A stretch of DNA of 36,172 nt. Origin: a virus. The DNA lies in IMG/VR virus record IMGVR_UViG_3300024518_004941, positions 1 to 36,172 of that record; one strand, written 5' to 3'. Positions 4,101 through 21,636 of the stretch are shown one piece after another. The notes beneath the pieces are model-generated. The model saw only the letters and a list, made by a program, of their open reading frames with translations, was not told the DNA's origin and did not search any database. The translations under genes were made by a program, and so were the position numbers. Positions within the stretch are counted from its first letter, which is position 1, and every line of letters starts with the position of its first letter.

Positions 4101-4219
4101 CAGCAGACTTAATCACAAGAGCAGATCAAGATATGGCAGATCTATATCAACAGTTAGACGATATGGTTCCAAGTCAAATCGAAAACTGGGGCATGGGAAC
4201 TACGTTCGTGATAGGCTAA
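1112..4219 (+). CDS. gp13: Giant gp13-like neck protein with N-terminal WFD repeats
   Basis: The C-terminal ~250 residues (from about 785) read like T4-group neck protein gp13. They contain RAQLGYPVIDVEL, a long helical and beta core, and AEIRGKYASLPGAGGG near the end, a pattern familiar from marine T4-like gp13. That family usually has about 300 residues, while this product has 1035. The extra N-terminal part has a ~260-residue beta-rich region and then about ten repeats of ~39 residues (W positions from residue 304 to 651). Their pattern is G-x-x-W-(F/Y/W)-(D/N) ... L-x-x-W-x-G-x-x-W. Such repeats occur in phage fibres and adhesins. A GTG at 1100 is also open in frame, but the ribosome site TAGGAG (1095-1100) overlaps it and is correctly spaced for ATG 1112. 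The stop overlaps the next ATG (TAATG). The gp13 assignment rests on recalled motifs. Confidence 0.78.
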   Translation: MGTFDQFSDITGQLQREGETITLTFAQGLPVTGQGTVTWNIPAPSAGCEAGSDGFYCGMVVLLSRVPLAEQHIPVAGKFYTGDPTANFDTHTGDTIGGTLVSGTLVGHALVIGAFYEGDKKSRGEELTTTFIVTDLEENVPYYVAGYAADCQARYHSEGQRAYSDNYGNTEEADFGSQQTIQMNGGASNGVKTTDGTNLIPSTIYEFDVEVNENFPEPGLPSDVINVKVDGLHVQTYEDLITEINIQLSLADNPPQQPVPPNAGSYLIDIAGMEAFQFNGLSYDSVDALFEPTDPAVIGMGDYWFDTANDTLQRWNIPSPTGWNLVNIIKYLEDPTSPQCDDYWFDGADAWLWNGSTWCDLITIISENDPVDCPVIDCGTFWYDETSAVLNEWSINEVRWIETTAIFWPEAPNQLSDGTYWFDLDTNLLSLRTASAWVTTTALIQEDEPTPPLADGQLWFNPENEELKVWDNTLMVFNDLPVLVWAGDPTIVESCDLWWDSVSDILYTWDVINSEWDQVAEFIQSPNDPAVPPVIAVDTVWYQPSTNVLSRWDGGQWVVVTVILYPTDPTSPVLGDAWLNTTTGVWSIWDTPSAGWNVIDPVDLDTDPNSIPQGTLWFDTTTNAFFQRVGSAWVSIPFTTSPISPTEGDLWFNSDEKTLNTWNGFTWVVTGPRVAIGLSTSGNLVFTTKNGGSNVCTMLIVPGAAGQFATVSTGFADFHSFGHFNSFVEATFNAPPLSETNVSEEGFLFNNLPAQILPQIYGRDGIPGEPMYNVVGIGDDGTPDERRELAGSLRAQLGYPVIDVELTSYQLDEAIQGGIESLRKRSEIAYKRGFFFMDVEPQIQAYRLTNKKAGFHKIVNISTAHRFTSAFLSTAHGAGVYGQVVLQHLYNMGTYDLTSFHLVAQYIEQLEHLFATRLTFHWDESSRVFSLHHTFVFPERILLDCSIERTEQELLKDRWCKTWIEKYALSQSRYMLAEIRGKYASLPGAGGGVSLNAADLITRADQDMADLYQQLDDMVPSQIENWGMGTTFVIG
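2000..3130 (+). repeat. Ten tandem WFD-type coding repeats in the neck gene
   Basis: Units begin near 2021, 2141, 2255, 2371, 2487, 2603, 2730, 2841, 2959 and 3062, so the period is about 115 bases. The encoded consensus is (G/D)-x-(L/Y)-W-(F/Y)-(D/N) followed by about ten residues, then W-x-G-x-x-W. DNA identity between units is low while the protein pattern is kept, which suggests old duplications under selection. Confidence 0.85.
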
Positions 4220-4389
4220 TGGATACGAAAACCCCACTATCCTTCAAAGAGTATCTAAATTATGAAGGCGAGCATAAAACAAAAGAAGCTCGAAAATTGG
4301 AAAAGAAAACGCCCAAAAATAAGATGTATGGAGGTAGCGGGACATTCTCCGACAAAGAGAAAGAAAACAACCGCGATGAGTCGAAATGA
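4219..4389 (+). CDS. Small 56-aa basic protein between gp13 and gp14
   Basis: The ATG overlaps the stop of the neck gene (TAATG), and its own stop overlaps the next ATG (ATGA), so translation is probably coupled on both sides. The product starts MDTKTPLSFKEYLNYEGE and is rich in Lys, Glu and Asn. No family is recognised. LSFKEYL resembles LTFKDYV in the 111-aa product at 108. A short internal or core protein is one option, which is inference. The seamless overlaps are the main support that it is real. Confidence 0.6.
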   Translation: MDTKTPLSFKEYLNYEGEHKTKEARKLEKKTPKNKMYGGSGTFSDKEKENNRDESK

Positions 4390-4577
4390 AACTCTGTGAA
4401 GTTATAAATTTATCTCCCAATATTGTTAAGTATCCTGAAATCGAATATCCGAATCAATATGATAATAAGAATTGGGGTAAAAATATGAAAGTTAAACTAA
4501 ACGATGTGATAGTACGTGATACCAAAACCGGAACAATTTACAGTCGCAAAACAATAGCACAAAGGAAAGCACAATGA
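4386..4577 (+). CDS. Small 63-aa protein, unknown
   Basis: It shares ATGA overlaps with the genes before and after it. The product begins MKLCEVINLSP and ends in a basic tail (RKTIAQRKAQ). No family is recognised. A second in-frame ATG at 4485 has GGGG seven bases upstream, so a 30-residue form is possible. The position between neck genes suggests a late, possibly structural, role. Confidence 0.5.
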   Translation: MKLCEVINLSPNIVKYPEIEYPNQYDNKNWGKNMKVKLNDVIVRDTKTGTIYSRKTIAQRKAQ

Positions 4578-5002
4578 AAAAGAAAACGTTTTTACAATCG
4601 CTGAAGGAAATGGACGTAGAGTTTAATGTCCCAGGCGCAAACGATGATGAGGCAGCTGGTGGTGAAATGACACCCGATATGACTGCCAACACAGATCGAG
4701 AGTCGGATGACAAACAAGTTGAAGTATCAACTGTTCTCACAATGGATAGTGATTTTTTCACTCACTTGCTTCAATCAGCAAGTGAAATGGAAGAAGATGA
4801 ACTTGCCACAGTTGCAGCTGAACTGATTGAAAAGTCTAAAACCAAAAAAGTTCTCACAATGGACGATATGAACGGTTACGATGATGACGGCATGGATGAT
4901 GAAACTGTAGGTGATGAATTGCCTGACGAAACTGATCCAGTTGGAGTAGTTGATAACGCAGATATGCGTCCAGAAGAAGAATGTGAGACGTCTGGATACT
5001 AA
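4574..5002 (+). CDS. Acidic 142-aa protein, possible internal or core protein
   Basis: The product is strongly acidic, dominated by Asp, Glu and Met, with a C-terminal half rich in D/E runs and no membrane segment. The basic start MKKKTFLQSLKE ends in Leu-Lys-Glu, which matches the (L/I)-x-E cleavage rule of the T4 prohead protease. Together with TF it resembles a T4 capsid-targeting leader. A good ribosome site (AAAGGAAA) precedes the ATG, which overlaps the previous stop. A prohead core or internal protein is a reasonable guess, but no homologue is recognised. A packaging or assembly accessory encoded next to the neck genes is the alternative. Confidence 0.65.
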   Translation: MKKKTFLQSLKEMDVEFNVPGANDDEAAGGEMTPDMTANTDRESDDKQVEVSTVLTMDSDFFTHLLQSASEMEEDELATVAAELIEKSKTKKVLTMDDMNGYDDDGMDDETVGDELPDETDPVGVVDNADMRPEEECETSGY

Positions 5003-5005
5003 AGT

Positions 5006-6676
5006 ATGAGTGCATTTGACGACGGTTGCAAGAACACAGTTGGGCCTAGATTTCCTGATGATGGTTCAACAGTACCACCAGGGTGTATACCAAAACCTTC
5101 TGGGGTAGGCGCGTGCCCAACTCCTAGTAAAGATATTGATTGTAAACCGTGGCAATTAACAAAATCCAAAGATACATGTTTCATTGATGGAGTTGTTGAT
5201 GAAGCTCTTGCAATTGCTGGTGCTGATTTTAATGTATACAAACTTCTAGGTGTCCATGAACAAGGCAAACTCGTTGATGTAACAGGAAAAGGACAAGGAA
5301 TCTCTGGTGGTTCGTTGATTGGATTCCCACCAGAAAATGCGTTTGATATATTTGTGTCACAGTGGCGATCTCTTCAAAAAGGTGAAAGTGCAATATTGGC
5401 CTCGACTTTTATTGGATACGATTTTGGTGCAATCAAAACAAACGATGCTAGTCGAAATAGATATGGAGTGGATACGAGCGTTCGTAAACACATCACTGCC
5501 TTTGCTATTAAACAATCGTCAAATCCTTTACAACGTGTAACACAAGCTCGTCTTGAGCGATCAGAAGATGGAATGAGATGGTATGGTGTTCAAGTGGTTA
5601 ATCTTCCAGATGATGATTGTTTAACTACAGTGCTTTCCAGATCATCTGTTCCAAACCGTTATTGGAGACTTCGTCCGTTATCATTTAACGGAACAGATAC
5701 TGATGTTTGGGCTGTTGTCGCTTTTCAACTGTTTCATAATTATGATCCAACAGCTATTGACAATATCCAAGATAAGATCTTTCTTGAGAATAGAGATCGT
5801 GACTACAATGACGAAGCAATCACTATCAAAGGTTCTTATGATTTGATTGATGTGCAATCTGAACTAACACGATTTGGTATTGAATTACCATCTCAAGCAA
5901 TTTATGCAACGATAAATTTCTCTAGTTGTGTCGCTTTGATTGGACGTCCAGTGGTCATTGGAGACATTATTCAGTTGCCAAGTGAAACACAATTCTCTGG
6001 AGATTTGGAACCAATTGAAAAATGGATGGAAGTAACAGACACAGCTTGGAGTACTGAAGGTTATTCGCCAGGTTGGACACCAACACTGATGAGAATTATT
6101 TTACAACCAGCATTTGCTTCACAAGAAACTCAAAATATTTTTGGTGATCTAAAAGAAAACGAACTGGTTGATCAATTGGGATTACTCGACAAAGGTGACG
6201 GACAACATCCAATCTTTCAAGATTATTCTGATGCAAGTCAAACAGCAACAGCTGATGCTAAGTCAGCTGTTCCAGAAAGAGGTGGTGAATCCTCAAGTAC
6301 AATTAGAGCTTGGGAAGAGGAAGAGGTAGCTGGTGCTCGTGAAGATGGTGTAGATAATCTTCAAAAAATTGGTCAAAATCCAATTGGATTTCATACCGAA
6401 GATGCTATGCCACCTAATGATGCTCCGTTCACAGAAGGTGACGCGTTTCCAGCAAGTCCAGTACAGGCTGACTATCACAGACTTACATATGAGAATATAA
6501 ATTCAGAAGTTCCTGCTCGTTTGTATAGATACAGTGAATCGAAGGGTCGTTGGATTTTCTTAGAAAAGGATCGTCGTGAACAATTCAATTCTACTAAACC
6601 AATACTACAAGAATTTTTAACTTCACCCAATAGAGTGAATCATAATCAAATAAGTAGAGAGGAGGATGACGGTTAA
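5006..6676 (+). CDS. gp14: Enlarged gp14-like neck protein with discoidin-like domain
   Basis: Residues ~270-395 follow the T4 neck protein gp14 pattern. That pattern is a DEAITIKGSYDLIDVQSEL-type strand region, then VVIGDIIQLPS, then a W-rich segment ending in QPAFASQETQNIFGD. T4 gp14 has 256 residues, and this product has 556. Residues ~120-245 look like an F5/8 type C (discoidin) fold: ERSEDGMRWYGVQVV, then RYWRLRPLSFNGTD, then WAVVAFQLF. The first 58 residues contain five cysteines (8, 27, 37, 46, 58), unusual for a cytoplasmic phage protein. The order gp13-gp14-gp15 supports the call. The stop overlaps the next ATG. The gp14 match is moderate and comes from memory of the family. Confidence 0.68.
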   Translation: MSAFDDGCKNTVGPRFPDDGSTVPPGCIPKPSGVGACPTPSKDIDCKPWQLTKSKDTCFIDGVVDEALAIAGADFNVYKLLGVHEQGKLVDVTGKGQGISGGSLIGFPPENAFDIFVSQWRSLQKGESAILASTFIGYDFGAIKTNDASRNRYGVDTSVRKHITAFAIKQSSNPLQRVTQARLERSEDGMRWYGVQVVNLPDDDCLTTVLSRSSVPNRYWRLRPLSFNGTDTDVWAVVAFQLFHNYDPTAIDNIQDKIFLENRDRDYNDEAITIKGSYDLIDVQSELTRFGIELPSQAIYATINFSSCVALIGRPVVIGDIIQLPSETQFSGDLEPIEKWMEVTDTAWSTEGYSPGWTPTLMRIILQPAFASQETQNIFGDLKENELVDQLGLLDKGDGQHPIFQDYSDASQTATADAKSAVPERGGESSSTIRAWEEEEVAGAREDGVDNLQKIGQNPIGFHTEDAMPPNDAPFTEGDAFPASPVQADYHRLTYENINSEVPARLYRYSESKGRWIFLEKDRREQFNSTKPILQEFLTSPNRVNHNQISREEDDG

Positions 6677-7449
6677 TGTCTGAATTTACAGGATATTATT
6701 ATAATCACCAACTGCGTCAATATTTGCTTCAGTTCATGGCCATTTTTGCAAATATGGAGGTGACTGTTGGCAAAACTAACGAGGTTGAAGCTCGCACAAT
6801 TAGAGTTCCAATTAAGAATGCCAGTTCGGATAGAGTTGTAGCAAGCATAAAATCTGATAACACTCAGAATAAACCTGTGCGTCTTCCTTTACTTGCAGCA
6901 GGTTTAACAAATGTTGTACTTGCTCCTCAATTAAGAAAAGGTATTGGTCAAACTCGCCGCCACGCAGAAATGCCAACAGGTGGAGAATTTCCAACTGATA
7001 TCAGAGTTGTTAGACAACGCATGCCTGTTCCTTACGTTGCAACCTTCGATCTCGGAATTTGGGCAAGCAATCAAGATCAACACTATCAAATAATTGAACA
7101 AATATTAATGTTATTCGATCCAATCCTACAAATTCAGACAAGCGATGATGTTAATGATTGGGCTAGAATAACCACAGTTGAACTGGTTGGAATCAATTTC
7201 GAAGAAAATATTCCACCAAGCGTAGACCGCCGTTTAATCCAAACCACATTAAATTTTGAAGTCCCAATTTATATTTCTGCACCGACAGAAGTTCATGATA
7301 AATTTGTGCAAGATATCTTTCTTCGTATCGGCGCAGTTAGCTTGGTAGCGCAAACATCGGAAGACATCATTGCAGATCTTGACGCTCAAGGAATTACTTA
7401 CGATCACGTATTTTCGCTGGGTGATGTCGATCTCGATAGTGATGCGTAG
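6676..7449 (+). CDS. gp15: Tail terminator / sheath stabilizer gp15
   Basis: The protein aligns by eye with T4 gp15 in several places. These are the opening YYYNHQLRQYLLQFMAIFANM, the RVPIKNAS segment, QIIEQILMLFDPIL and RRLIQTTLNFEVPIY. Length (257) is close to T4's 272. gp15 forms the ring that ends tail polymerisation and joins the tail to the neck. The ATG overlaps the gp14 stop, with GAGGAGG upstream. It is followed by an 86-base gap with a late promoter for the sheath gene. Confidence 0.9.
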   Translation: MSEFTGYYYNHQLRQYLLQFMAIFANMEVTVGKTNEVEARTIRVPIKNASSDRVVASIKSDNTQNKPVRLPLLAAGLTNVVLAPQLRKGIGQTRRHAEMPTGGEFPTDIRVVRQRMPVPYVATFDLGIWASNQDQHYQIIEQILMLFDPILQIQTSDDVNDWARITTVELVGINFEENIPPSVDRRLIQTTLNFEVPIYISAPTEVHDKFVQDIFLRIGAVSLVAQTSEDIIADLDAQGITYDHVFSLGDVDLDSDA

Positions 7450-7476
7450 TTTTTGTAAGTATTTCTAGGATCATTC

Positions 7477-7484
7477 TATAAATA
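7477..7484 (+). promoter_or_regulatory. T4-type late promoter (TATAAATA)
   Basis: A full 8/8 match to the T4 late consensus, in the gap between gp15 and gp18. It ends 51 bases before the sheath start codon. Confidence 0.9.
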
Positions 7485-7535
7485 CCCTCAACTACAAAAG
7501 GTAGCACGAATTTCACTCTACAAGGAGAATGACAG

Positions 7536-9593
7536 ATGGTAACTCTAGTTAGCCCAGGCATATCAGTAACAATTACAGATGAAAGTTTTTTCATTCCTGT
7601 ATCGGCTCCTACTGTGCCTTTGCTTTTTATCGCAACTGCTGATGAAAAACTTCAATCCGATGGCGTATCGCCAGCCGAAGGCACATTCGAACATAGCGTC
7701 GTACGTACCATCACTTCACTCAACCAATCTGTTGAGACCTACGGTGTTCCAGCTTTTCAAAACGATGCTGGTACACTAGAAGAACATCACGGCGATGCTC
7801 GTAACGAATATGGTTTGTTTGCACTAAACCAATATCTTGGTATAGGCAACAGAGCTTTTGTTGTCCGTGCAAATGTTAACTTGAACGACGACTTTACTGA
7901 CCTGCAAGACTTGTGGGATACAAAAATGCTTGAATCTAAGGTCATCCTTGAAAACCTTATCAACGAGTTCATTAACGAATTTAATACTGCTAACGGCCTA
8001 CTAATTGGCACAAGCAACCTCATCGCTGGTCAAATTGAAACAGATTTTGACGGTGCTGGTTCAAATGGTTCTTTTATTGGTGGCGACGGTGTTGGTGGTA
8101 CAGCATACGTAATTGGTGATGTAATCACATTATCTAATGGTGGTACAGTTACAGTAAGCGCGATCGATGCAAACGATGATGTAACAGGTTTTAGTGTTAC
8201 AACAATCGGTTCTTTCGTATCTACTGGTGTTGCATTAACACAGACTTCTACTACTGGTGCTGGTACATTATTCACACTTACTCCAGAAGATAACAACGTT
8301 GTTGTATACAAGACAACAGTTTCTGCCGCTGAGTATTTGTCTCTTACAGAAGACGCAACACAATTCATCTTTGATCCAATAGTTGGTTCTTTCTCATTTA
8401 TTCCTTTACATGACGATTTCATGGATGATCAATCAGCTTCTCCATTCCTAGTTTTTGCATCTGGTTTTGATGTGGCATCCACTGGTACATATTCTGGTTT
8501 AGAATTTGTATCTGCTAACATCGGTTCTTTTCCGTTGTTCCCAGGTGGTGGCACAGTTGCAGGTGAATTCACTCCTCAAGAAGGTGGTAATCTTTTGGTT
8601 GCACTTGCTGATGATTTCAAATTTACAAACAATTTTCTAACAAGTTCAAGTCTTGGTGCAAATGATGCAGCTCGTAGAGTTTCCATTGTAACAGCACTTG
8701 CAGCAGCTATTAATTCTAACACAGAAATAAGAGCTGAAGCATTTGATTATAACTTAGTTCTTTGCCCAGGTTATCCTGAGCTAGTTGACGAGTTACTAAA
8801 TCTTGTTGTTGACATCGCTGAAGAAGCATTAGTTATTGCTGATACTCCAGTTGACTTATCACCAGACGGAATTACAAATCCTAGCACTGGTTGGGCAGCT
8901 ACAACTGCTCGTCAGAATAGTACTAACGTATGTTATTATTACGCATGGGCTTTTGCATCTAACCTTGACGGTCGCAACATTCTTGCTGCTCCTTCAGGTA
9001 CCGCTCTTCGCCAATTTGCATTCAGTGATGATATATCATTCCTTTGGTTCGCACCAGCAGGTATTCGACGTGGTATTATTACAGGGATTTCAGACACTGG
9101 TTATGTTACTGGTGCTCTTGGCGGTCCAACAGAATTTGTTCCTCTCGCATTGAATCAAGGACAACTTGATGCACTTTATCAAGATGCTCCAAGCGGTAGA
9201 ATTAATCCTATACTATTCCGTCCAGGGCAGGGTTTCTTGCTTTGGGGTCAAAAGACCTCAGCATCAGCACCAAGCGCTCTCGACCGTATTAACGTATCAC
9301 GTTTGATTAAATACATCAAACGTCAGTTGCGTCGTAACACTCTTAGCTTTGTCTTCGAGCCAAACGATCAACTTACACGTGACAATTTGAAAGCGGTTGT
9401 TGATAACTTCCTTGGTGATCTGATTGTTAAGAGAGGTTTGTTCGACTTTGCTACTATTTGTGACGAGTCAAACAACACACCAGATCGTATTGATCGCAAC
9501 GAAATGTACATTGATGTTGCTCTCAAGCCGGTCAAGGCAGCTGAATTTATCTTCATCCCAATACGGATTGTAGCAACAGGTGCAGAGATTTAA
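7536..9593 (+). CDS. gp18: Contractile tail sheath protein gp18
   Basis: The N-terminus (MVTLVSPGISVTITDESFF) is the classic T4-group sheath start. The C-terminal domain carries RINPILFRPGQGFLLWGQKT, then DRINVSRLIKYIKRQL and FVFEPND. The protein ends in the conserved (K/R)PVKAAEFIFIPIRI segment. Length 685 compares with 659 in T4. A Gly/Thr-rich region at ~170-250 is probably an exposed insert. It polymerises around the tube and contracts at infection. AAGGAG lies nine bases before the ATG and a perfect late box precedes it, as expected for a major virion protein. Confidence 0.97.
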   Translation: MVTLVSPGISVTITDESFFIPVSAPTVPLLFIATADEKLQSDGVSPAEGTFEHSVVRTITSLNQSVETYGVPAFQNDAGTLEEHHGDARNEYGLFALNQYLGIGNRAFVVRANVNLNDDFTDLQDLWDTKMLESKVILENLINEFINEFNTANGLLIGTSNLIAGQIETDFDGAGSNGSFIGGDGVGGTAYVIGDVITLSNGGTVTVSAIDANDDVTGFSVTTIGSFVSTGVALTQTSTTGAGTLFTLTPEDNNVVVYKTTVSAAEYLSLTEDATQFIFDPIVGSFSFIPLHDDFMDDQSASPFLVFASGFDVASTGTYSGLEFVSANIGSFPLFPGGGTVAGEFTPQEGGNLLVALADDFKFTNNFLTSSSLGANDAARRVSIVTALAAAINSNTEIRAEAFDYNLVLCPGYPELVDELLNLVVDIAEEALVIADTPVDLSPDGITNPSTGWAATTARQNSTNVCYYYAWAFASNLDGRNILAAPSGTALRQFAFSDDISFLWFAPAGIRRGIITGISDTGYVTGALGGPTEFVPLALNQGQLDALYQDAPSGRINPILFRPGQGFLLWGQKTSASAPSALDRINVSRLIKYIKRQLRRNTLSFVFEPNDQLTRDNLKAVVDNFLGDLIVKRGLFDFATICDESNNTPDRIDRNEMYIDVALKPVKAAEFIFIPIRIVATGAEI

Positions 9594-10226: not shown

Positions 10227-10271
10227 TTAGGCTAAGGAAATTTTCACAGGACGTGAAACAGGGAAGTATTT

Positions 10272-10300
10272 GGGGCGATCTTCGGATCGCCTCTTTTTTT
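10272..10300 (+). terminator. Intrinsic terminator after the tube gene
   Basis: The stem GGCGATC (10274-10280) and GATCGCC (10285-10291) encloses a TTCG loop. It is extended by two weaker pairs and followed by seven T residues at 10294-10300. It uses the same UUCG loop as the terminator at the window start. A smaller hairpin, TTTCAC/GTGAAA, lies just upstream at 10242-10258. Confidence 0.92.
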
Positions 10301-10313
10301 GCGTTTTCCTTTT

Positions 10314-10321
10314 CATAAATA
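10314..10321 (+). promoter_or_regulatory. T4-type late promoter (CATAAATA)
   Basis: The box lies 13 bases after the terminator T run and ends 17 bases before ATG 10339. It restarts transcription for the tube-initiator, gp4 and terminase genes. Confidence 0.85.
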
Positions 10322-10338
10322 GAAGTAAGGAGATTATT

Positions 10339-11694
10339 ATGGCCGACCCAAGAAACTGTCAGAAAATTACAACAAGAAAGAGCAAATTAGGGCAACGCAA
10401 GAAAGGAATTTTCGATGCGGCTAGTACGCTTGGAAATTTAGAATTTCTTAATGACGTAGGGTATGGCCAAGTACGTGAAGGTTTAGAAGTCCTTGGCAGA
10501 GTCTCTGATTCTGTGAGATCTGGTAGGTCTGTTGTTCCAGGCAAAGAAGGAGATGAGATATTTAATACAACGTTGGGATCGATTGTTAATACCGGAATTG
10601 AATCTGTGGAAACTGGCGCAAATGCTGTACTCGATGCAGTTGGACTACCTCGAAATACTCTCGATTCAGTCGCGGAGTTTGATGCTAGTACTGCAAACAT
10701 AGCATTAGGTCAAGCCAAGTCTGTGTTTGAGCGAGTTAAACAAGGCAATTTTAGCCTCGAAGATATCCCTGGCGCGTTTCAAGATTTACAAAATTTAGAA
10801 ATCCTAGTTCGTAGATTATTCGTTCCGTCTCCACTCGACGAGTCTCTTATACAAGGATTAAATGATAGACTTTGTCGTCCATCTCCTTGGGCAATTGACT
10901 TAATTAAATTCGCTCCACGTTATAAATTTATGTATATTGTTGACATTAAATTCTCACCAGCATACAAAGTTTGGAATGAAAAACTTGCTAACGGATTAGC
11001 CTTCATAACAAAAAGCGCTTCACGTCCACAAGTCGACTTTGAATATGATGAAGTAAACATGTACAACTATTGGACACAAGTTATTAAGCGTACTCGTTTC
11101 AATCCAATGACAATGAGATTTATCGATGATAACACAAACAACGCCTTGAATTTCTACGCTGCTTATATGAGAGCAATCAGTCCTATCACAAACAAAAAAT
11201 TCATAGACCAACGAGCAGCCGGTGGTGGTGTTAGTTCTCATCCTGCAGCTGGTACATATGAAAATGATTCAATGAGCTTCACAAATACAAATGATGATCC
11301 AGAATTGTTAGGTATAACCCTTCCAGCATACTCAGCTGGTGTAGGTGCATTAAATGATGATGATAATGGTGTCAACACTAAAGGATTATTATCTAACATT
11401 TCATTATATCACATAGGAAATTATGGTTCCACCATAACGGCCTTTCATATGTTCAATCCAAGAATAACCTCTCTTCAACCAGATGAACTTAGTATGGCTG
11501 ACAATGGTGATGGTAGTGAATTTACTTTTGAATTCAATTATGATAGCTTGTTTGTAGATCCAGGAATTCCAGTAGGAGAATTTGGACTTGATAATATTAC
11601 TAACAAGTCAGGTGAAAGAGTTGGCGCTACTTTCCCTCTAATTATAACGACAGCTGATAACGAAAATCCTGGCGGCGCTAACAAAGGCGTATAA
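10339..11694 (+). CDS. gp19/gp54-like baseplate tail-tube initiator, putative
   Basis: The frame stays open back to about 10270, but that stretch is the terminator and promoter. TAAGGAG (10326-10332) places the start at ATG 10339, giving 451 residues. Residues ~180-430 have the tube-fold pattern seen in T4-like gp54 and gp19: YKFMYIVDIKFS, then RPQVDFEYDEVNMYNYWTQV, then RFNPMTMRFIDD and NALNFYAAYMRAI, ending FTFEFNYDSLFVDPG. The N-terminal ~180 residues are unassigned and look helical. T4 gp54 has 320 residues. gp48 (tube cap) is an alternative. Placement straight after the tube gene supports a tube or baseplate role. The stop overlaps the gp4 ATG. Confidence 0.62.
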   Translation: MADPRNCQKITTRKSKLGQRKKGIFDAASTLGNLEFLNDVGYGQVREGLEVLGRVSDSVRSGRSVVPGKEGDEIFNTTLGSIVNTGIESVETGANAVLDAVGLPRNTLDSVAEFDASTANIALGQAKSVFERVKQGNFSLEDIPGAFQDLQNLEILVRRLFVPSPLDESLIQGLNDRLCRPSPWAIDLIKFAPRYKFMYIVDIKFSPAYKVWNEKLANGLAFITKSASRPQVDFEYDEVNMYNYWTQVIKRTRFNPMTMRFIDDNTNNALNFYAAYMRAISPITNKKFIDQRAAGGGVSSHPAAGTYENDSMSFTNTNDDPELLGITLPAYSAGVGALNDDDNGVNTKGLLSNISLYHIGNYGSTITAFHMFNPRITSLQPDELSMADNGDGSEFTFEFNYDSLFVDPGIPVGEFGLDNITNKSGERVGATFPLIITTADNENPGGANKGV

Positions 11695-12689: not shown

Positions 12690-12707
12690 CATGTAAATAA
12701 TTACATG
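12690..12707 (+). promoter_or_regulatory. Hairpin covering the terminase start codon
   Basis: CATGTAA (12690-12696), loop ATAA, and TTACATG (12701-12707) form a perfect 7-bp inverted repeat. The terminase ATG (12705-12707) lies inside the 3' arm, and no clear ribosome site precedes it. It could hide the start codon in mRNA or be a DNA operator. The function is inferred. Confidence 0.5.
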
Positions 12708-14264
12708 GCAATTTCAAAAAACAGAAATATTAGAAAAGCTGGTGTCAAGGTCGAGATGACCTATGAGCAATTCGTCGAAATTAAAAAGTGTGCAGCTGAT
12801 CCAATATATTTTTGTCGCAAATATGTTATGATTCAACACCCAAAACGTGGTGCTATTCACTTCGACATGTATGATTATCAAGAAGATATGATTCACATGT
12901 ATATGGATAGTACATTCAGCATGGTTCTTTCAGCAAGACAAACAGGAAAGTCAATTACCTCAGCAGCATACCTACTGTGGGTTGCAATGTTCCAGTTTGA
13001 CAAAACACTTCTAATCGCTTCAAACAAAAACTCCAACGCAATGGAAATGATATATCGAATTAGATATGCATATGAAAACTTGCCTTTGTGGTTGAAGCCA
13101 GGCGTGTTGGAAGATGGTTGGAACAAACACAACGTTGGTTTTGATAACGGTTCACGTATTATATCTACTGCAACATCTGATGATTCAGGTCGTGGTGGTT
13201 CTTTCTCTCTCGTATTTTTAGACGAATTTGCATTCGTTGCTCCAGCTGTTCAAGATGAATTCTGGACATCAATTGCTCCTACATTATCAACTGGTGGGTC
13301 CTGTATTATCACATCTACTCCAAACGGTGACTCTGATATCTTTGCAGAATTGTGGCGTGGTGCAGAACTTGGAAATAATGGTTTCGCTCACCAATATGTT
13401 CCGTGGGATGCTCCTCCAGGCAGAGGTGAGGAATTCAAGAAAGCTGAAATTGGAAAAATTGGTGAACGTAAGTGGAAGCAGGAATATGAATGTGTGTTCT
13501 TAAGTTCAGATGCCCTCCTAATCGACTCACAATTTTTAATTAACTTAACAGCAGAATTAAATGACGTTCGACCAGTTAACGCTAAGAACGATGTTATATT
13601 TTGGGATAGTATTAAAAAAGGACTCACTTACTTGGTTGGTGTTGACCCAGCAACAGGTAGTGGTGAAGATTATAGTGTCATCACTGTATTTGAATTTCCA
13701 TCTATGGTGCAAGTTGCAGAGTATAGATCCAACACAATGTCAACAAACGATTTATATGGAGTGTTAAAGAATTTGCTGCTATACTTAGAAGCTATGGATT
13801 CGATGGTATATTTTTCTGTTGAGAATAATGGTGTTGGTGAAGGTGTTATCGCATTATACGAAGCGGACGAAACACCACCAGATAATTCTGAATTTGTTTC
13901 TGAGGAAGGAGCAAAACGAAGAGGCATGACAACCACATCTCGTACAAAGATGCGTGCTTGTGTTAACTTCAGAGAAATGCTTCAAAAACGAAATCTACAC
14001 ATTAGATCTCCCATCTTATTGAAGGAACTGAAATCATATGTGAGACAACGAGGATCTTATTCTGCTCAACGCGGAGCAACGGATGATTGTATTTCTGCTT
14101 GCCTTATTATTACAAGACTGATCGAAGAGATAGCTCAGTTCGAACAGGCAGCGTTTGACAAGCTGTACTCGGGACAATTTGATGAGTGGGGCACTGATAC
14201 TTGGGACGGCTATGAAGGCGGATATAGCGAAACTGATGAGGCCGATCCTTTCATACTGGTGTAG
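12705..14264 (+). CDS. gp17: Terminase large subunit gp17, packaging ATPase/nuclease
   Basis: The ATPase domain has Walker A ARQTGKS (77-83), Walker B SLVFLDE (168-174) and the coupling motif TSTPNG (203-208). The RNase H-like nuclease domain has GVDPATG (Asp314), VENNG (Glu373) and ATDD (Asp460/461). Length 519 is shorter than T4's 610. The protein pumps DNA into the prohead and cuts the concatemer. The ATG sits in a hairpin without an obvious ribosome site. An internal ATG at 12756 with AAGG five bases upstream is an alternative start that would remove 17 residues and keep every motif. This is the last gene of the plus-strand late run before the early-type unit. Confidence 0.97.
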   Translation: MAISKNRNIRKAGVKVEMTYEQFVEIKKCAADPIYFCRKYVMIQHPKRGAIHFDMYDYQEDMIHMYMDSTFSMVLSARQTGKSITSAAYLLWVAMFQFDKTLLIASNKNSNAMEMIYRIRYAYENLPLWLKPGVLEDGWNKHNVGFDNGSRIISTATSDDSGRGGSFSLVFLDEFAFVAPAVQDEFWTSIAPTLSTGGSCIITSTPNGDSDIFAELWRGAELGNNGFAHQYVPWDAPPGRGEEFKKAEIGKIGERKWKQEYECVFLSSDALLIDSQFLINLTAELNDVRPVNAKNDVIFWDSIKKGLTYLVGVDPATGSGEDYSVITVFEFPSMVQVAEYRSNTMSTNDLYGVLKNLLLYLEAMDSMVYFSVENNGVGEGVIALYEADETPPDNSEFVSEEGAKRRGMTTTSRTKMRACVNFREMLQKRNLHIRSPILLKELKSYVRQRGSYSAQRGATDDCISACLIITRLIEEIAQFEQAAFDKLYSGQFDEWGTDTWDGYEGGYSETDEADPFILV

Positions 14265-14343: not shown

Positions 14344-15615
14344 ATGCCCGAACCCACAGAAAACGCAGTTTACATCCCACAATCAAATATGATTCGTCTC
14401 GACAATGAGATCGAAAAATTGAATCGCCGTGCAGATAAAATCGGTTGTCCTCGCGTTGAATATTACGTTCACGATGTTGTCACTGTTCCCGATCCTACCA
14501 CTGCTTCAAACATGAAAAATTACCTTCGTCGTGAATTGACTGAAGAAGAACTGTCTGGAATCAAGATGGTTGATCTTTGCCTAATTGAGATTGTTGGTAA
14601 AGGTCCTAAAGTTGATGGATATAGATTCGTTGGTACTTTAGACCACTACACAATCCCTGGTTCAGTAATTGTTAACACCGTTCCTGGTGAAACAGTCCCA
14701 GCCCAATTTTTTGAAAGTGATGCAATCTGCAATCACTGCAATGCAAAACGCAACCGAATTGAAACATTCATCGTTGAAAAAGAAGATGATAATACGTATT
14801 TGCAAATCGGTCGTAATTGTCTTAGAGACTTCTTCGGCCATGATCCACAATATATCGCTCGTTTCTTAACTCGTGTTATGAATTTGGTTAAAAACCTTAA
14901 AGAAGATGATGAGTGGCGGGGAACTAGTGAACGCACCACATACTACTATAATTCTGTTAAAGTTCTAACAAACACAGTAGCTGCGATCCGCTCATTCGGA
15001 TGGGTGCCTAAGTCAGCAGCCTCTGAGGAAAGAGCAGCGACATCTTCGGAAGTGGGTTATATGATGTCAAGTCCTTGTAACACTCTAGCACGTCAAGCGT
15101 TAGATCGGTATTTGCAAAGAGTTCAATTTAATCTCGAAGAAGATTTGAAAGAAGCAGAAGCCGCTATTGAATGGCTAAAAGTTCAAGAAGGTAATAACGA
15201 GTACATGCATAATTTAAAACTTCTTGAAGATGCAGATGCGATTCCATCAAAGATGTTTGGATATTGGTGTTCGTTGATCGCTGCTTACCAGCGCGTTCAG
15301 GCTCGTCTCGAAAAAGCTAAGAAAGAGAACAGGTTAAATGAACATCTTGGTGAAATAAAAGATAGGGTTGAAGTTGTTGTTAAATGCACCAAATTGAGGT
15401 ATATTGATGGGTACTACGGTACTGTATGTATACACAACATGCGTGACAGCGAAGGCCGTACGATCATCTGGTTTGCTAATGCAGATGCTAAGATGAAAAA
15501 GGGAAACAGTTATAGCATTCGTGCCACGATTAAAAAGCATGATGAATATAGAAATTGGAAACAGACGCACGTTAGTCGTTTAACAGTAATTGAGGAAGTA
15601 AAGAATGACAGTTAA
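14344..15615 (+). CDS. Zinc-ribbon / OB-like conserved phage protein
   Basis: The 423-residue protein resembles a family of uncharacterised phage proteins with a C-x-x-C centre. CNHC (129-132) is followed by TFIVEKE, then QIGRNCLRDFFG with Cys159, and Cys35 may contribute. Residues ~350-420 have an OB-like strand pattern (EGRTIIWFANADAKM, then YSIRATIKKHDEYRNWKQTHV), so nucleic-acid binding is plausible. A helical middle (about 170-330) is unassigned. It follows a sigma70-type promoter, and its 3' end overlaps the HD-Pnk gene by 11 bases, so the two are co-expressed. The likely role is DNA or RNA handling early in infection. The biochemical activity is unknown. Confidence 0.7.
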   Translation: MPEPTENAVYIPQSNMIRLDNEIEKLNRRADKIGCPRVEYYVHDVVTVPDPTTASNMKNYLRRELTEEELSGIKMVDLCLIEIVGKGPKVDGYRFVGTLDHYTIPGSVIVNTVPGETVPAQFFESDAICNHCNAKRNRIETFIVEKEDDNTYLQIGRNCLRDFFGHDPQYIARFLTRVMNLVKNLKEDDEWRGTSERTTYYYNSVKVLTNTVAAIRSFGWVPKSAASEERAATSSEVGYMMSSPCNTLARQALDRYLQRVQFNLEEDLKEAEAAIEWLKVQEGNNEYMHNLKLLEDADAIPSKMFGYWCSLIAAYQRVQARLEKAKKENRLNEHLGEIKDRVEVVVKCTKLRYIDGYYGTVCIHNMRDSEGRTIIWFANADAKMKKGNSYSIRATIKKHDEYRNWKQTHVSRLTVIEEVKNDS

Positions 15616-16714
15616 ATCAAATTTTATTGCTTGGTATTTTAACGAGTTCAAATTCGATCCACTATTTGAGGTAATGGATGGAATGGCTGAGGGTTCTCCT
15701 CATCACCGCGAATCAAGTATTGGCATCCACACAAACATGGTTGTAACAGAATATATTGGCAACTGTACTGGTTCGTGGGATCTGATCCATTACCGTGTGT
15801 TGGGAGCATTTGCAGCAACATTTCATGATGTTGGGAAGCCGGGTGCGTGTCAGTTCAAGTGGAAAGAAGAGCGTGGCGATTACAACTCGTTCAACGGTCA
15901 TGAAATTCTATCTGCCCGTTTATGGGAAGATTGGGCTGTTAAGAACTGGGAATTGTTAACAGATCGTTTCGATTTTGTTCCAGACGACATTTATCGTGTT
16001 GGTTGGTTGATCGAACATCACAAGCCTTGGGATATCAAGAAAACTGAAAAGCGAACTAATATGGCACTCACAGCTATCGAACTGGAATTAGAGGATGTTT
16101 TTACATGTCTACTTCGAGCAGATACATGGGGTCGTTTATCTGATGATGCAACTGAAAAACGTGAAAAGGTTAGTACATGGTTGAATGATTTTCAGTACCG
16201 AGTAGATCGACTTGGTTCAGTGCCAAGCGATCCTAATAACACAGATGATAAGCCTGTGCTTACTATGCCAATTGGTCCATCTGGTTGCGGAAAGTCAACA
16301 TATCGAAACAGTTTACCGGAAGACGTTGAGTCATATTCTTGGGACGATCTTCGTGTTGAGTGGTACAGCAAAGACTACGATGAAGCGTATAAATTGGCTT
16401 GTGAAGACAAGAAATTCATTCGAAAAGCACATTCTCGATTTAACTGGATGGTAAAAACAGGCAAAGACATTTATGTTGACAACACCAACACGTCTGCGAG
16501 ACGTCGTCGATTTTTTATTACAGAAGCACGTCGTCATGGGTATCATATTGTTGGGGTTTTATTTCCAATCAGCATAGATACATTAATGAGTCGTCAACAA
16601 ACACGAACCGATAAAACGGTTCCAACTCAGGCCGTTAGTCAGCAGTTTCATAACATACAACTGCCACAATATGGAGAATTTGATAGTGTGTTGATTTGCG
16701 ACGGAAACCTATAG
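15605..16714 (+). CDS. HD phosphoesterase - polynucleotide kinase fusion (HD-Pnk type)
   Basis: Two domains are visible. Residues ~35-185 have HD-domain metal ligands: His42, His74-Asp75 in FHDVGK, GHE (His99), EHHK (138-139) and RADTW (Asp173). Residues ~217-365 are a P-loop kinase with GPSGCGKS (224-231), a WDDLR acceptor/base motif (246-250), VDNTNT (291-296) and a lid with R330/R334, as in T4-type 5'-OH polynucleotide kinases. An HD plus kinase enzyme that heals RNA/DNA ends (2',3'-phosphoesterase plus 5' kinase) is known from Runella as HD-Pnk. The order and size (369) agree. In T4 Pnkp the phosphatase is a HAD domain instead. The likely role is repair of host-cleaved tRNA or nicked nucleic acid. 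No ligase is visible in this window. Confidence 0.85.
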   Translation: MTVKSNFIAWYFNEFKFDPLFEVMDGMAEGSPHHRESSIGIHTNMVVTEYIGNCTGSWDLIHYRVLGAFAATFHDVGKPGACQFKWKEERGDYNSFNGHEILSARLWEDWAVKNWELLTDRFDFVPDDIYRVGWLIEHHKPWDIKKTEKRTNMALTAIELELEDVFTCLLRADTWGRLSDDATEKREKVSTWLNDFQYRVDRLGSVPSDPNNTDDKPVLTMPIGPSGCGKSTYRNSLPEDVESYSWDDLRVEWYSKDYDEAYKLACEDKKFIRKAHSRFNWMVKTGKDIYVDNTNTSARRRRFFITEARRHGYHIVGVLFPISIDTLMSRQQTRTDKTVPTQAVSQQFHNIQLPQYGEFDSVLICDGNL

Positions 16715-16724
16715 AGGATTATAA

Positions 16725-17831
16725 ATGAATAGATTCAAAATTTTAATGATTAGCGTGGTGTTACTTGTAGCACCACTTGCCGGAAATGCTCAATCGACAA
16801 CCGAAAGTCAATTTATTGATATAATTAAAACAAATAAAGCATCGATTGTAGTTGTCACAGTAGAACAATCGGCTCCCGATCTGACAGAGAATATGGCTGA
16901 TGTCTTAGAGGACTTAGAGGACTTAGAGGATTTTGGATTTCCAAAAAATTTCTTGGACGGTTTAGTTCCTAATAAAAAAGAGGAAGTAGTACCCCGTAAA
17001 AACTATTCCTTTGGAACAGGCTTTTTCATAGAGGACTATATCGTTACCAATTATCACGTCATCGACGGCGGTGAAACAATAGTTATTAATTTTGAAAGTG
17101 ACCCAACTCGATATGAAGTTGAAGTGGTAAATTCAGATGAGATATCTGACATAGCAATATTAAGATTAAAAACCCCTCTCCCTTTTGATGTTGTTCCTTT
17201 AGAGTGGGGTAATGCACAGTTATACTCAGGTCAAGACGTTTGGGCTGTTGGTCATCCACGAGGGTTGGTATATTCAGTATCAAAAGGAATAGTTAGTCAT
17301 ACACACCGCGCTGCAAGCAATAACTGGCAGAAATCAATTCAAACTGATGTTGCGATTAACTCAGGTAATTCAGGCGGACCATTGTTTGATATGGCTGGTA
17401 ATGTTGTTGCAATCAACACCATCATAGTTACCTCTAGCGGTGGAAGTGATGGAATTAGTGTGAGCATTGAAAGCAGATACGCACAAAACATAATTGAAAA
17501 ATTATTAGCTGGTGGAGATATTGATCGTCCACTTATGGGACTTCAAATCGCCGATAACATTATGACTGGCAAAGTCTTTGTAGCAGTTGCGAAAGAAGGA
17601 AATCCTGGCGCCGAAGCAGGTGTTGAAAGTAAAGATATTTTCTATACACTAGACGGTGATCGTATTCTTGCTGCTCAAGACATCTTTGACGTTTTACGTA
17701 GACACGCCCCTGGTGATATTATACCAGCAACATTTATTCGTGGTGACGATAGTGAACATATCACTGTGGAAATTACATTGATGTCGTTGATACAAGCATT
17801 CGAAGAATATGAAGCTGAAGCAGAAGAGTAA
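16725..17831 (+). CDS. Exported HtrA/DegP-like serine protease with PDZ domain
   Basis: A signal peptide (basic start, hydrophobic 6-19, GNA|Q cleavage near 22/23) points to the periplasm. The trypsin-like domain has all three catalytic residues: His111 in TNYHV, Asp142 in SDIAILRL and Ser216 in NSGNSGGPL. A single PDZ-like region (~250-355, with PLMGLQIAD, GNPGAEAGV and GDRI) follows. Length 368 suits a one-PDZ DegS/DegQ type. The gene lies 10 bases after HD-Pnk and so belongs to the early-type unit. A triple LED repeat (residues 61-69) sits where DegP has its flexible loop. It may act on envelope or secreted host proteins, or aid lysis or superinfection control. A host origin for the gene is likely but not shown. 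Confidence 0.93.
   Translation: MNRFKILMISVVLLVAPLAGNAQSTTESQFIDIIKTNKASIVVVTVEQSAPDLTENMADVLEDLEDLEDFGFPKNFLDGLVPNKKEEVVPRKNYSFGTGFFIEDYIVTNYHVIDGGETIVINFESDPTRYEVEVVNSDEISDIAILRLKTPLPFDVVPLEWGNAQLYSGQDVWAVGHPRGLVYSVSKGIVSHTHRAASNNWQKSIQTDVAINSGNSGGPLFDMAGNVVAINTIIVTSSGGSDGISVSIESRYAQNIIEKLLAGGDIDRPLMGLQIADNIMTGKVFVAVAKEGNPGAEAGVESKDIFYTLDGDRILAAQDIFDVLRRHAPGDIIPATFIRGDDSEHITVEITLMSLIQAFEEYEAEAEE
16904..16930 (+). repeat. Triple 9-base tandem repeat in the protease gene
   Basis: CTTAGAGGA occurs three times head to tail (16904-16912, 16913-16921, 16922-16930), encoding a Leu-Glu-Asp repeat. The unit is a multiple of three, so copy changes keep the frame. Confidence 0.95.
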
Positions 17832-17832
17832 C

Positions 17833-18402
17833 TTATTGAGTAAGTAAACCAGCTTCTTTTAACGCTATAACTTCTTTCATTAAGTGTTTACAAACACCAG
17901 GAGTTCGCTTGGTGTTCACAGGGGGTCTATCAGTTTTCTTTTGATATGGCCCAGGCGGATCTCCTAATAAACTTCCATCGTTGTTATTCCAAATAGAAAA
18001 TCTCCAACGAAAATCCAAACAAGTGCAACGAACCTTCACAGTGTTGCGTCCAAGCGATATTGGCATGATATGGTATTCTTCTTTATCAGAACCGATGAAA
18101 GAAACGTTATCATTCTGATCAGAATCTTCATATATGACATCACTAAAAGATATTGAAGGCTGATACTTTTTACCATCACTGGTAGCGGTAGCATGAGCTT
18201 CTAATGTTTGACTCTCGCGAAATGGAACAAGTTTCATTTTAGTTATCTGGATAGGATTAACAGCAAATTGTCTCTTTTTCGTCGCGGGCAGAAACTGCAA
18301 CGTCTTTTGTTCCAAATCTTTATAGGAACTTTCCTCATTCAGTTGCTCTGTCATTTGTTCGAGGATTCTTTCACCTCGAATTAACATTAGATTACTGGTC
18401 AT
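17833..18402 (-). CDS. SWIM-type zinc-finger protein
   Basis: The C-terminal third has Cys126-x-Cys128 (VRCTCLDFRWRF) and Cys171-x-His173 (PGVCKHL), the CxC ... CxH set of a SWIM zinc finger. A P/G-rich stretch (GDPPGPYQKKTDRPPVN) lies between them. Residues 1-110 have no known domain. SWIM fingers bind DNA or protein. The first ATG is six bases after the stop of the upstream lysine-rich gene and lacks its own ribosome site, so translation is probably coupled. The 3' end is one base from the end of the convergent protease gene. It is probably expressed late with the minus-strand block. Function is unknown. Confidence 0.75.
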   Translation of the reverse strand: MTSNLMLIRGERILEQMTEQLNEESSYKDLEQKTLQFLPATKKRQFAVNPIQITKMKLVPFRESQTLEAHATATSDGKKYQPSISFSDVIYEDSDQNDNVSFIGSDKEEYHIMPISLGRNTVKVRCTCLDFRWRFSIWNNNDGSLLGDPPGPYQKKTDRPPVNTKRTPGVCKHLMKEVIALKEAGLLTQ

Positions 18403-18408: not shown

Positions 18409-19719
18409 TTAATGAATCTCTTTTTTGATGAATGAAACTTTAACTGACTTTGTCGCACCATCAGGCTTAACACCCAAATCTTCGAGTATTGCCATTACTG
18501 CTTCATTCTTTTGTGTTTCAGGAGCATTTGATTCTTCAATCTTTTTTACAGCCTTCACTTTTTCAGCAGTTAACTTTTTGTCAACGTTTTTAGGATCGAG
18601 GTTAGCTCTCTCCATTAATTCTTGAGCAATCTTATCAATGTCAACTATTACATCACTACCAGTTATAGTTTTAACAGGCCCACTGCGTTTCGCTTCGGTA
18701 TGAACTTTCACATTAGATTTACCTTTAGAGTCTGTTAGTTTAATACCAATCTCTTCGAGTATATCTTTAATTGCGCTATCCTTTTTTGTATCAATTGGCT
18801 TTACAGGTTTATCTGGTGTTCCTAATTTCTTAGATAACTGAGCAGGTGGAATTGTTGTATCTTTTCGAGCAGCTTTCTTCTTAGGGGTTAAGTTTTCAAC
18901 GATCTTTTTAACATTAACTTTCTTCTTTTCAGCTACCTTTTTAACATCCTTTAGGATATCTTTATCAATTTCTTCCTGAATTATGGACGGTTTGTTCTGT
19001 GCAGCTTTACCCATATCAACCTTTTCAGCTACCTTTTTAGTAATAGGTTTCTCAACTTTCTTAACTGTTGCTTTCTTCTTATTTGTAGCTATCTTCTTAA
19101 CTGTTTCGTCAATCTTTTTAGACTTCGCCGCTTTGATTTTAGCAGCCTTTTCGGTTGCCTCTTCCTTCAAAATTTTCTTAGCCTTGGCGCGTTGAGTAGC
19201 CTTTACAGTTGCGGGCTTTTTCTTTGCTGCTGCATCTTCTTTTTTCTTGGTCAGTTCTTCAGCAATTTGTTCAATGCTCTTTTCCTTTGACTTTGTCTTA
19301 TTCTTCGAAGGCGGCTCAAGTTTTATGACGTTAGACTTCTTCTCGTCTTTCTTTTCATCTTCCTTCGGCTTGTCAGCTTGACGGTTGGCAGGCTTGACAG
19401 TAACATTTTCGGGCTTGGTTGAGTAAATTTCTGCATTACCAACCACATTGAGTGTACCATTAAAAGGTTCAAAATAATAACCATCACCAACAACTTGAAG
19501 AGAACAAGGATAAGCAGTGCGATCAATAAAAGGAAGTGGAGGTACTTTACAGATCCATTTATCACCAGATCCTTCTCTCTCACAAGCAAAACAAATGTCC
19601 ATACCGTTCGCAGAAATAGTGAACCACACGCGAATGTCGGGTGTACTAAGACCTTGAACTGATACATTCAATTCGAATGTATTTTCTTTCGTATTATTAA
19701 TTGTTACTATATTGTCCAT
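18409..19719 (-). CDS. Lysine-rich low-complexity protein with N-terminal beta domain
   Basis: The first ~100 residues form a beta-rich domain (TPDIRVWFTISANGMD, then YYFEPFNGTLNVVG). The next ~330 residues are dominated by Lys, Ala, Glu and Val, in long helical, histone-H1-like or scaffold-like stretches. A segment near residue 300 (KKDSAIKDILEEIGIKL) is repeated near the C-terminus (KNEAVMAILEDLGVKP). AAGGA at 19726-19730 overlaps a first ATG (19725) and is correctly spaced for the second ATG (19719), which I chose (436 aa). A late box lies 22 bases upstream. It could be a DNA-condensing internal protein, a scaffold or a tether. I recognise no family with certainty. Confidence 0.75.
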   Translation of the reverse strand: MDNIVTINNTKENTFELNVSVQGLSTPDIRVWFTISANGMDICFACEREGSGDKWICKVPPLPFIDRTAYPCSLQVVGDGYYFEPFNGTLNVVGNAEIYSTKPENVTVKPANRQADKPKEDEKKDEKKSNVIKLEPPSKNKTKSKEKSIEQIAEELTKKKEDAAAKKKPATVKATQRAKAKKILKEEATEKAAKIKAAKSKKIDETVKKIATNKKKATVKKVEKPITKKVAEKVDMGKAAQNKPSIIQEEIDKDILKDVKKVAEKKKVNVKKIVENLTPKKKAARKDTTIPPAQLSKKLGTPDKPVKPIDTKKDSAIKDILEEIGIKLTDSKGKSNVKVHTEAKRSGPVKTITGSDVIVDIDKIAQELMERANLDPKNVDKKLTAEKVKAVKKIEESNAPETQKNEAVMAILEDLGVKPDGATKSVKVSFIKKEIH

Positions 19720-19741
19720 TGACATTCCTTCAATTATCCAG

Positions 19742-19749
19742 TATTTATC
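19742..19749 (-). promoter_or_regulatory. T4-type late promoter, minus strand (GATAAATA)
   Basis: The reverse complement of 19742-19749 is GATAAATA. It overlaps the stop codon of the upstream minus gene and ends 22 bases before the chosen start at 19719. Confidence 0.75.
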
Positions 19750-20245
19750 GCTTAGGTTTGCGCAGTCTAAAATTCGTTACCTTCACAATTGCTTGAGTAG
19801 TTATACGTTTCATACCTGACATCATCACCTTCATTCTGTCCTTCGTTGCGTTTACTACTTCTACGATATTAAATAGCACCCGAGCTTTATCCTGAGGAAC
19901 CATGTATTGCTTTTCAATCGTCTTCTTACCAATCTTTATTTCAATTCGAACAGGTAGGAAACGTCGAAGATATTCCGCTTCCTGTTCTCTTGGAACAATA
20001 TAAAATTGTTCTTTGTCTGGTACGGGCTGATACAGATGCTGAATTTCTCCAGGCTGTAATGGTCGTGTAACGGTTTTCGGATAATATCCACCACCGCCAC
20101 CAGCTCCTCCTGCAACAACAGGATTAACACAGAACAATGTGAATGGCCCAGCAGTAAGCATAGTACCATTTTCACATGCTGTGGTCTTTCCGCAACTTAA
20201 CCCTTTGGTTATAATTGCTTGAGCTGCATCACCTAATCCAGCCAC
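19745..20245 (-). CDS. Probable virion protein, 166 aa, GTG start
   Basis: No known domain. The N-terminal third is Gly/Ala-rich with cysteines (LSCGKTTACENG) and a glycine run (GGAGGGGGYY). The C-terminal half is basic with predicted strands and ends LRKPKR. GTG is the only reasonable start. AAGGTG just upstream overlaps the stop region of the preceding gene (9-base gap), so the pair is coupled. It probably belongs with the adjacent 246-aa structural-type protein. Function is unknown. Confidence 0.65.
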   Translation of the reverse strand: MAGLGDAAQAIITKGLSCGKTTACENGTMLTAGPFTLFCVNPVVAGGAGGGGGYYPKTVTRPLQPGEIQHLYQPVPDKEQFYIVPREQEAEYLRRFLPVRIEIKIGKKTIEKQYMVPQDKARVLFNIVEVVNATKDRMKVMMSGMKRITTQAIVKVTNFRLRKPKR

Positions 20246-21057: not shown

Positions 21058-21636
21058 TTATTGCACAGTTGACCACGGTTTGTAAAATTCATATATTAAA
21101 CGATGCTCTTCGGGTGTTCCGTTATTTTTAATACGGTTTGCTCTCCACGAAACAACAACTATGTTGCCTTTCATATATCCTTTGTTTGGATCAATTCTAT
21201 CAACAGAAGGAGTGTTGTCAGCCTGTTGGTTATCGGAAAAGAACAACGAGATGCCTAAAACAGGACAACGATCTAGCATTGCGACATCATCAACAGTCAA
21301 ATCACAAGGTAAATTTAATTTTCTCGCATTACTTTTTGCTCTACGTAACAAATAGTGCTCTGGTGATTCTACTTTCTGTGTTTTATTTAAAAAAGCTGTT
21401 GGATTATCGTATAATACTCCTGTTTCAGATAATATCTCATCTCTCTTTTTTATCCACCACGTGTCTGAATTCTTCTTTTGTTTTTCTGTTGTGTACCATT
21501 CTCGTTGAGCAATTGACATACACTGCTTACAATAACTCTGTAAGTTATCTTTCGTGTTTGGGTGTTTGCTGAACTCAGATGTTGGTCTGCTTCTTTCACC
21601 TTGATGATGTTTTGATTTACATTCTTTGTTTTTCAC
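21058..21636 (-). CDS. HNH-family endonuclease with N-terminal zinc finger
   Basis: Residues ~95-180 match a phage HNH subfamily. Features are RAKSNARKLNLPCDLT, Cys124 in DRCPVLG, SVDRIDPNKGYMKGN (Asp146, Asp149, Asn158) and WRANRIKNN (Asn167). The N-terminus has a finger with Cys6-x3-His10 and Cys36-x2-Cys39, typical of such free-standing mobile endonucleases. The only start that keeps the finger is GTG 21636, which lacks a ribosome site. An in-frame TGA lies just upstream. Such genes spread by cutting phage DNA. Both neighbouring genes look intact, so no intron is implied. It may be a recent insertion between divergent late genes. Confidence 0.82.
   Translation of the reverse strand: MKNKECKSKHHQGERSRPTSEFSKHPNTKDNLQSYCKQCMSIAQREWYTTEKQKKNSDTWWIKKRDEILSETGVLYDNPTAFLNKTQKVESPEHYLLRRAKSNARKLNLPCDLTVDDVAMLDRCPVLGISLFFSDNQQADNTPSVDRIDPNKGYMKGNIVVVSWRANRIKNNGTPEEHRLIYEFYKPWSTVQ

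Follow-up and report, generated by a model that had tools for sequence, protein, structure and literature searches.

The polynucleotide kinase/phosphatase (PNKP) of the thermophilic bacteriophage RM378 was by 2007 the only such enzyme for which the 3'-phosphatase had been shown to lie in an HD domain, according to PMC1997131, and it had been purified and assayed in a study cited there (Blondal 2005, J Biol Chem 280:5188). The Deinococcus radiodurans protein DRB0098 has 5'-OH kinase activity, which is lowered by mutation of a lid arginine, and phosphorylates a DNA oligonucleotide; the 3'-phosphatase seen for it in 2007 was not assignable to its HD domain (PMC1997131). By the title of a study cited in PMC9146567, the D. 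radiodurans HD-type polynucleotide kinase-phosphatase (HD-Pnk) aids resistance to ionizing radiation and mitomycin C. The Pnkp (PseT) of bacteriophage T4 is built differently, with the kinase first and a HAD phosphatase second. We take the HD-Pnk of Runella slithyformis to be a cellular HD-Pnk with the domain order, HD ligands and kinase motifs described below, and work from the Shuman laboratory reportedly found that cellular HD-Pnk acts on 2',3'-cyclic phosphate, with RNA and DNA alike as substrates.

The locus presented here lies in a 36-kb virus fragment (the window, that is, the whole stretch of 36,172 nucleotides that was analysed), and its main features are collected in Table 1. A first-pass annotation, made from the letters alone, had read one ORF as an HD phosphoesterase fused to a polynucleotide kinase. 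The stated coordinates proved exact, the ORF encodes 369 aa, and the call is backed by sequence, by profile matches, by the fold of a structure model and by a characterised full-length homologue.

Table 1. Positions in the window of the HD-Pnk gene, its domains and catalytic residues, and the two genes upstream of it.
Feature	Position	Strand	Evidence or remark
Large terminase, T4 gp17 type, conserved upstream neighbour	12705..14264	+	Pfam Terminase_6N/6C
phrog_2319 protein, unknown function	14344..15615	+	E 9.4e-72; overlaps the HD-Pnk start by 11 bases
HD-type polynucleotide kinase-phosphatase gene	15605..16714	+	369 aa; ATG at 15605, stop at 16714
N-terminal HD phosphohydrolase domain, residues 1-205	15605..16219	+	Pfam HD; model match 3wfo
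HD metal ligand H42	15728..15730	+	invariant, 79/79
HD doublet H74-D75	15824..15829	+	invariant, 79/79
HD metal ligand H99	15899..15901	+	invariant, 79/79
HD metal ligand H139	16019..16021	+	invariant, 79/79
HD metal ligand D173	16121..16123	+	invariant, 79/79
C-terminal polynucleotide kinase domain, residues 213-369	16241..16711	+	AAA_33, 3.3e-12; model matches 4jt2 and 1ltq
P-loop GPSGCGKS, residues 224-231	16274..16297	+	G229 and K230 invariant
D247 (general-base equivalent of T4 D35) to R250 (T4 R38)	16343..16354	+	D247 80/80, R250 70/80; T4 alignment
Lid arginines R330 and R334 (T4 R122 and R126)	16592..16606	+	R330 75/80, R334 79/80; T4 alignment

Pfam AAA_33 covers residues 219-349 (E 3.3e-12) and the Pfam HD domain residues 69-150 (E 2.8e-4), the latter at 21.6 bits and hence just below the cut-off of 22, while phrog_6931, annotated as 'unknown function', matches the whole protein (E 8.6e-37). 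No HAD phosphatase was matched in the protein by the domain scan at E up to 0.1. The bacterial Pnkp model TIGR04075 (bacter_Pnkp) reaches 31.9 bits against a curated score of 750 and covers the kinase part only, and the PADLOC matches were all weak ones to Cas3-HD, which mirror the HD fold.

Conservation was assessed in an alignment of 80 non-redundant family members, whose pairwise identities have a median of 35% and reach down to 17%. Each of the six HD ligands (H42, H74, D75, H99, H139 and D173) is identical in the 79 of 79 homologues covering those columns, and so are M45, K78 and R177; the first-pass annotation had placed four of the six ligands correctly and missed H99 and H139. The kinase half has G229, K230, D247 and R334 as invariant residues, the sole gaps being truncated rows. 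The P-loop, the WDDLR motif (residues 246-250) and the lid arginines are present as first described, and a phmmer alignment with T4 Pnkp sets D247 on D35, R250 on R38 and R330/R334 on R122/R126. A chance match is excluded because the ligands and catalytic residues are conserved across the family in this way.

The structure model, for which the window protein and 15 relatives served as input, is confident (mean pLDDT 89.7, pTM 0.90). The best fold match for the kinase half (residues 213-369) is the kinase of C. thermocellum Pnkp (4jt2; Z 16.8, rmsd 2.5 over 152 residues, VIA-align), although that enzyme has a calcineurin-type phosphatase and an adenylyltransferase module and the window protein has neither. 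The comparison with T4 Pnkp proposed earlier also gave a matching kinase fold (1ltq; Z 14.6, rmsd 2.2 over 134 residues, VIA-align). The two proteins thus resemble each other in kinase fold, active-site residues and presumed healing role, but the window protein has its HD domain first. In model and alignment both the HD metal site and the kinase active site are complete on the expected folds. Within the viral structure library there were just three near full-length matches to the model. The first, A0A248SJY5 (TM 0.88), has at 374 aa the length of the Salicola phage SCTP-2 homologue; the second is a 'polyA polymerase' of a Campylobacter phage (TM 0.72) and the third an AAA protein of a myovirus (TM 0.64).

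The label of the second of these matches leads to one alternative, that the protein is a poly(A) polymerase, the label given in many records of Campylobacter phages. Residues 2-205 do match the A. aeolicus A-adding enzyme (3wfo; Z 16.9, rmsd 3.1 over 173 residues, VIA-align), the HD part of a 16-member family profile finds poly A polymerase and Cas3-HD among PDB sequences, and the RM378 homologue RM378p110 is itself recorded as 'probable poly A polymerase'. The matched part of 3wfo is however confined to its C-terminal HD-containing region (its residues 229-448), whose fold is shared, and the nucleotidyltransferase head is absent from the window protein, in which Pfam finds no nucleotidyltransferase domain and the remainder is a kinase. 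A poly(A) polymerase is refuted by this domain content, and we give it practically no weight. A protein consisting of a kinase for a small molecule or a tRNA-linked group (like seryl-tRNA kinase or zeta toxin) and an HD nucleotidase, acting without end healing, is a very improbable alternative. With the same 16-member profile against PDB sequences, seryl-tRNA(Sec) kinase (PSTK) equals C. thermocellum Pnkp on the kinase side (both 1.5e-15), followed by Pnkp1 (1.9e-14) and T4 Pnkp (4.6e-13), and the modelled kinase half matches seryl-tRNA(Sec) kinase (Z 14.5, VIA-align) and zeta toxins (Z 12.8). Against it stand the NCBIfam PSTK score of 20.4, where the cut-off is 290.5, the conserved residues of T4 type (D35/R122/R126), the full-length homology to RM378p110 and DRB0098, and the RNA ligase neighbours seen in relatives.

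RM378p110 is the single ORF of the RM378 genome that matches the family profile (2.7e-49), and we take it to be the enzyme of Blondal 2005 because no other HD-Pnk-like ORF was found in that genome. Its BLASTP alignment with the window protein spans both from end to end (24% identity over 372 columns, E 1e-11), and it belongs to phrog_6931 too (E 3.9e-127). Its residues H38, H66, D67, H86, H122 and D156 fall on the six HD ligands of the window protein, and it retains all ligands and catalytic residues save R250, which is M218. The likeness extends to the order of HD domain then kinase, to the P-loop, general-base Asp and lid Arg, and to the phage itself, searches of the RM378 genome having found T4-like terminase, sheath and tube proteins akin to the window's own. 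Unlike in the window clade, the RM378 HD-Pnk gene lies far from the terminase gene (98 kb vs 53 kb); an Rnl1-type RNA ligase gene is found at 90293-91609. The assignment of the window to a T4-like phage is supported. The first-pass annotation had, though, overstated the novelty of the arrangement, since an HD-type phage kinase/3'-phosphatase was purified from RM378 (Blondal 2005, cited in PMC1997131), and the RM378 homologue falls in the same PHROG. In view of this homologue and the T4-like genes of RM378, the HD solution in a T4-like phage has been known for two decades; the catalytic design is not new and the window protein is a further member of a known family. DRB0098 matches the family profile over its full length (E 1.3e-35) with 18% identity to the window protein, and its H51, H81, D82, H107, H139 and D173 align with the HD ligands, the doublet H81-D82 falling on H74-D75. 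Cellular HD-Pnk, represented by DRB0098, thus shares domain order, HD ligands and kinase motifs with the window protein, but its gene usually adjoins an RNA ligase gene and it occupies a separate branch of the tree.

Family membership, domain order, the complete set of catalytic residues and the fold are established. By analogy with the characterised RM378 homologue, the protein is expected to have 3'-phosphatase and 5'-kinase activities, and very probably it heals the chemical ends at strand breaks in nucleic acid, making them fit for rejoining by a ligase. The HD di-metal site, predicted to be formed by the six ligands, would strip a 3'-phosphate to leave a 3'-OH, and the domain probably also removes 2',3'-cyclic phosphate, as in cellular HD-Pnk. 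The kinase would phosphorylate a 5'-OH with the gamma-phosphate of ATP, D247 being the putative general base and R330/R334 the lid, and the outcome would be a break with 5'-P and 3'-OH ends, sealable by an ATP-dependent ligase. Judging from gene association, the ordinary substrate may be RNA that a metal-independent ribonuclease has cut, for instance an anticodon nuclease of the host, and the partner may be an Rnl1/Rnl2-type ligase encoded elsewhere in the genome. We consider it quite probable that this is an HD-type Pnk of the RM378 type that heals ends for an ATP-dependent ligase, with RNA as the usual substrate, and RNA repair against host tRNA-cleaving nucleases, as in T4, is likely.

The first-pass annotation had left the partner ligase unnamed and suggested a search for one. 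The window itself has no match to PF09414, PF09511, PF01068, PF01653 or RtcB, and no ligase was found within about 8-10 kb of HD-Pnk in any locus of the window clade; RtcB had no match in eleven records. A 147-kb close relative likewise gave no ligase with five family profiles or with phmmer using 12 phage ligases, while it has polymerase, helicase and RNR genes and may be incomplete. A tRNA with a CTA anticodon at 19716-19791 of this relative, possibly an amber suppressor, hints at TAG recoding. Among the window-clade contigs of at least 180 kb, PF09414 RNA ligase is above the cut-off in nine of nine and the Rnl1 type is also found in seven, compared with a ligase above the cut-off in only two of eight contigs of 100-175 kb. 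Large phages often carry RNA ligases (PMC7824862), and mere co-occurrence is for this reason a weak argument.

Adjacency to an RNA ligase gene in unrelated lineages is a stronger argument than co-occurrence. The two genes adjoin in a Bacilli MAG, a near-identical Erysipelotrichaceae MAG, a Cytophagaceae MAG and the jumbo phage LR756500, whose ligase has an HNH-like N-terminal part. The same arrangement was seen in six of the eight plasmid-collection records inspected (Sphaerospermopsis, Variovorax, Pseudomonas, Bosea, Deinococcus QL22 and a Proteus record) and not in the Miltoncostaea and Vibrio records. Campylobacter phage F355 has an Rnl1-type ligase some 1.1 kb downstream of HD-Pnk. Relatives elsewhere pair with RNA ligases, and the window is without one. 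The surroundings of the pair in LR756500 form an RNA-repair-type neighbourhood, with a cRec-like protein (1105-1422 of its locus) and a macro-like protein (15855-16634 of its locus) within 10 kb of the pair.

The window HD-Pnk has a different address, in a virion and packaging module whose order is conserved. Upstream of it are genes for a head-tail adaptor, tail sheath stabiliser, sheath, two tube-like proteins, head closure, and small and large terminase. The second tail-tube-like protein (10270-11694), of 474 aa, stands next to the normal 198-aa tube protein, and the clade keeps both. Among 65 non-redundant window-clade loci, 58 have room for this neighbour, and in 55 of them a large terminase on the same strand precedes HD-Pnk (within 200 bases in 29); a 189-aa-type protein with a CxC...CxH pattern lies downstream in 46 of 56 (within 200 bases in 40). 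The phrog_2319 protein (14344-15615), which carries a CxxC zinc-finger-like motif, is present in 19 of 108 loci and is upstream in a minority of clade members. An HtrA/DegP-like protease with trypsin and PDZ domains and an N-terminal signal-like stretch (16725-17831) begins 10 bases past the end of HD-Pnk and separates it from the 189-aa gene in the window, which was not seen in the other clade loci. The 189-aa gene itself (17833-18402), on the minus strand here and on the plus strand in relatives, has no Pfam or PHROG match, and CxC...CxH, a SWIM-like zinc-binding pattern, is found in 44 of its 46 members. In one relative the terminase gene is in three pieces (1047-6767 of its locus), which looks like two split inteins with ends CVSGDT... 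/ ...FTNGMLSHN and CVSINT... / ...VSNGVLSHN, and separate homing-endonuclease-like ORFs lie between the pieces.

These neighbours speak against the early-type operon first suggested for the gene, which is rejected, as HD-Pnk follows the large terminase in a module of sheath, tube, head closure and terminase genes. The T4-type late motif TATAAATA occurs in five copies against 1.8 expected, a weak excess reached in 2 of 100 shuffles, and one copy is 52 bases upstream of the sheath gene, the first of the plus-strand run. No tRNA genes were found in the window. The fixed place of HD-Pnk beside the terminase and not beside repair genes counts against the reading favoured here, and the main rival to RNA repair is the same chemistry on DNA, in which a DNA ligase of host or phage would be the partner and 3'-phosphate/5'-OH nicks and breaks in the phage genome would be healed ahead of replication, recombination or packaging. 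The reading is also in line with the phosphorylation of a DNA oligonucleotide by DRB0098 (PMC1997131) and with the radiation and mitomycin C resistance named in the title cited in PMC9146567, and it is because of the packaging-module address and this Deinococcus phenotype that we keep it in consideration. We hold it to be rather unlikely, the neighbours in other lineages being RNA ligases and not DNA ligases, and a position in the module can stem from descent and expression time alone. A still less probable proposal, which we regard as doubtful, is that HD-Pnk is a core gene of the packaging module in a large T4-like clade of uncultured phages and heals DNA ends late or repairs RNA late.

Relatives of the window-type protein are encoded by at least 170 uncultured phage stretches in IMG/VR, the best 80 of which were examined, and the named phages with relatives are about 50 Campylobacter phages and Salicola phage SCTP-2. 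The labels in the Campylobacter phages vary between poly(A) polymerase, AAA ATPase, and polynucleotide 5' kinase and 3' phosphatase. In the tree, cellular HD-Pnk and jumbo phage LR756500 stand apart from the window clade and the Campylobacter phages form a long branch near the cellular side, the exact order being unsure with such long branches. The HD-Pnk gene of one relative (6595-8327 of its locus) is split by an HNH-endonuclease-like ORF that resembles the window gene at 21058-21636, as if by homing-endonuclease invasion.

Overall, for a phage enzyme that is known biochemically but seldom named (PHROG 6931 still reads 'unknown function' and public records say poly(A) polymerase), our data widen the range to a very large number of environmental phages. 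The use of tRNA repair in T4 is early. If HD-Pnk were indeed a core gene of the packaging module, it would be fixed between the large terminase and the small CxC...CxH (SWIM-like) protein and might have a late use, either on DNA ends in replication and packaging or on RNA at the end of infection. HD-Pnk is found next to RNA ligase genes across several bacterial phyla and in jumbo phages, and RNA repair can thus readily be tested against DNA repair.
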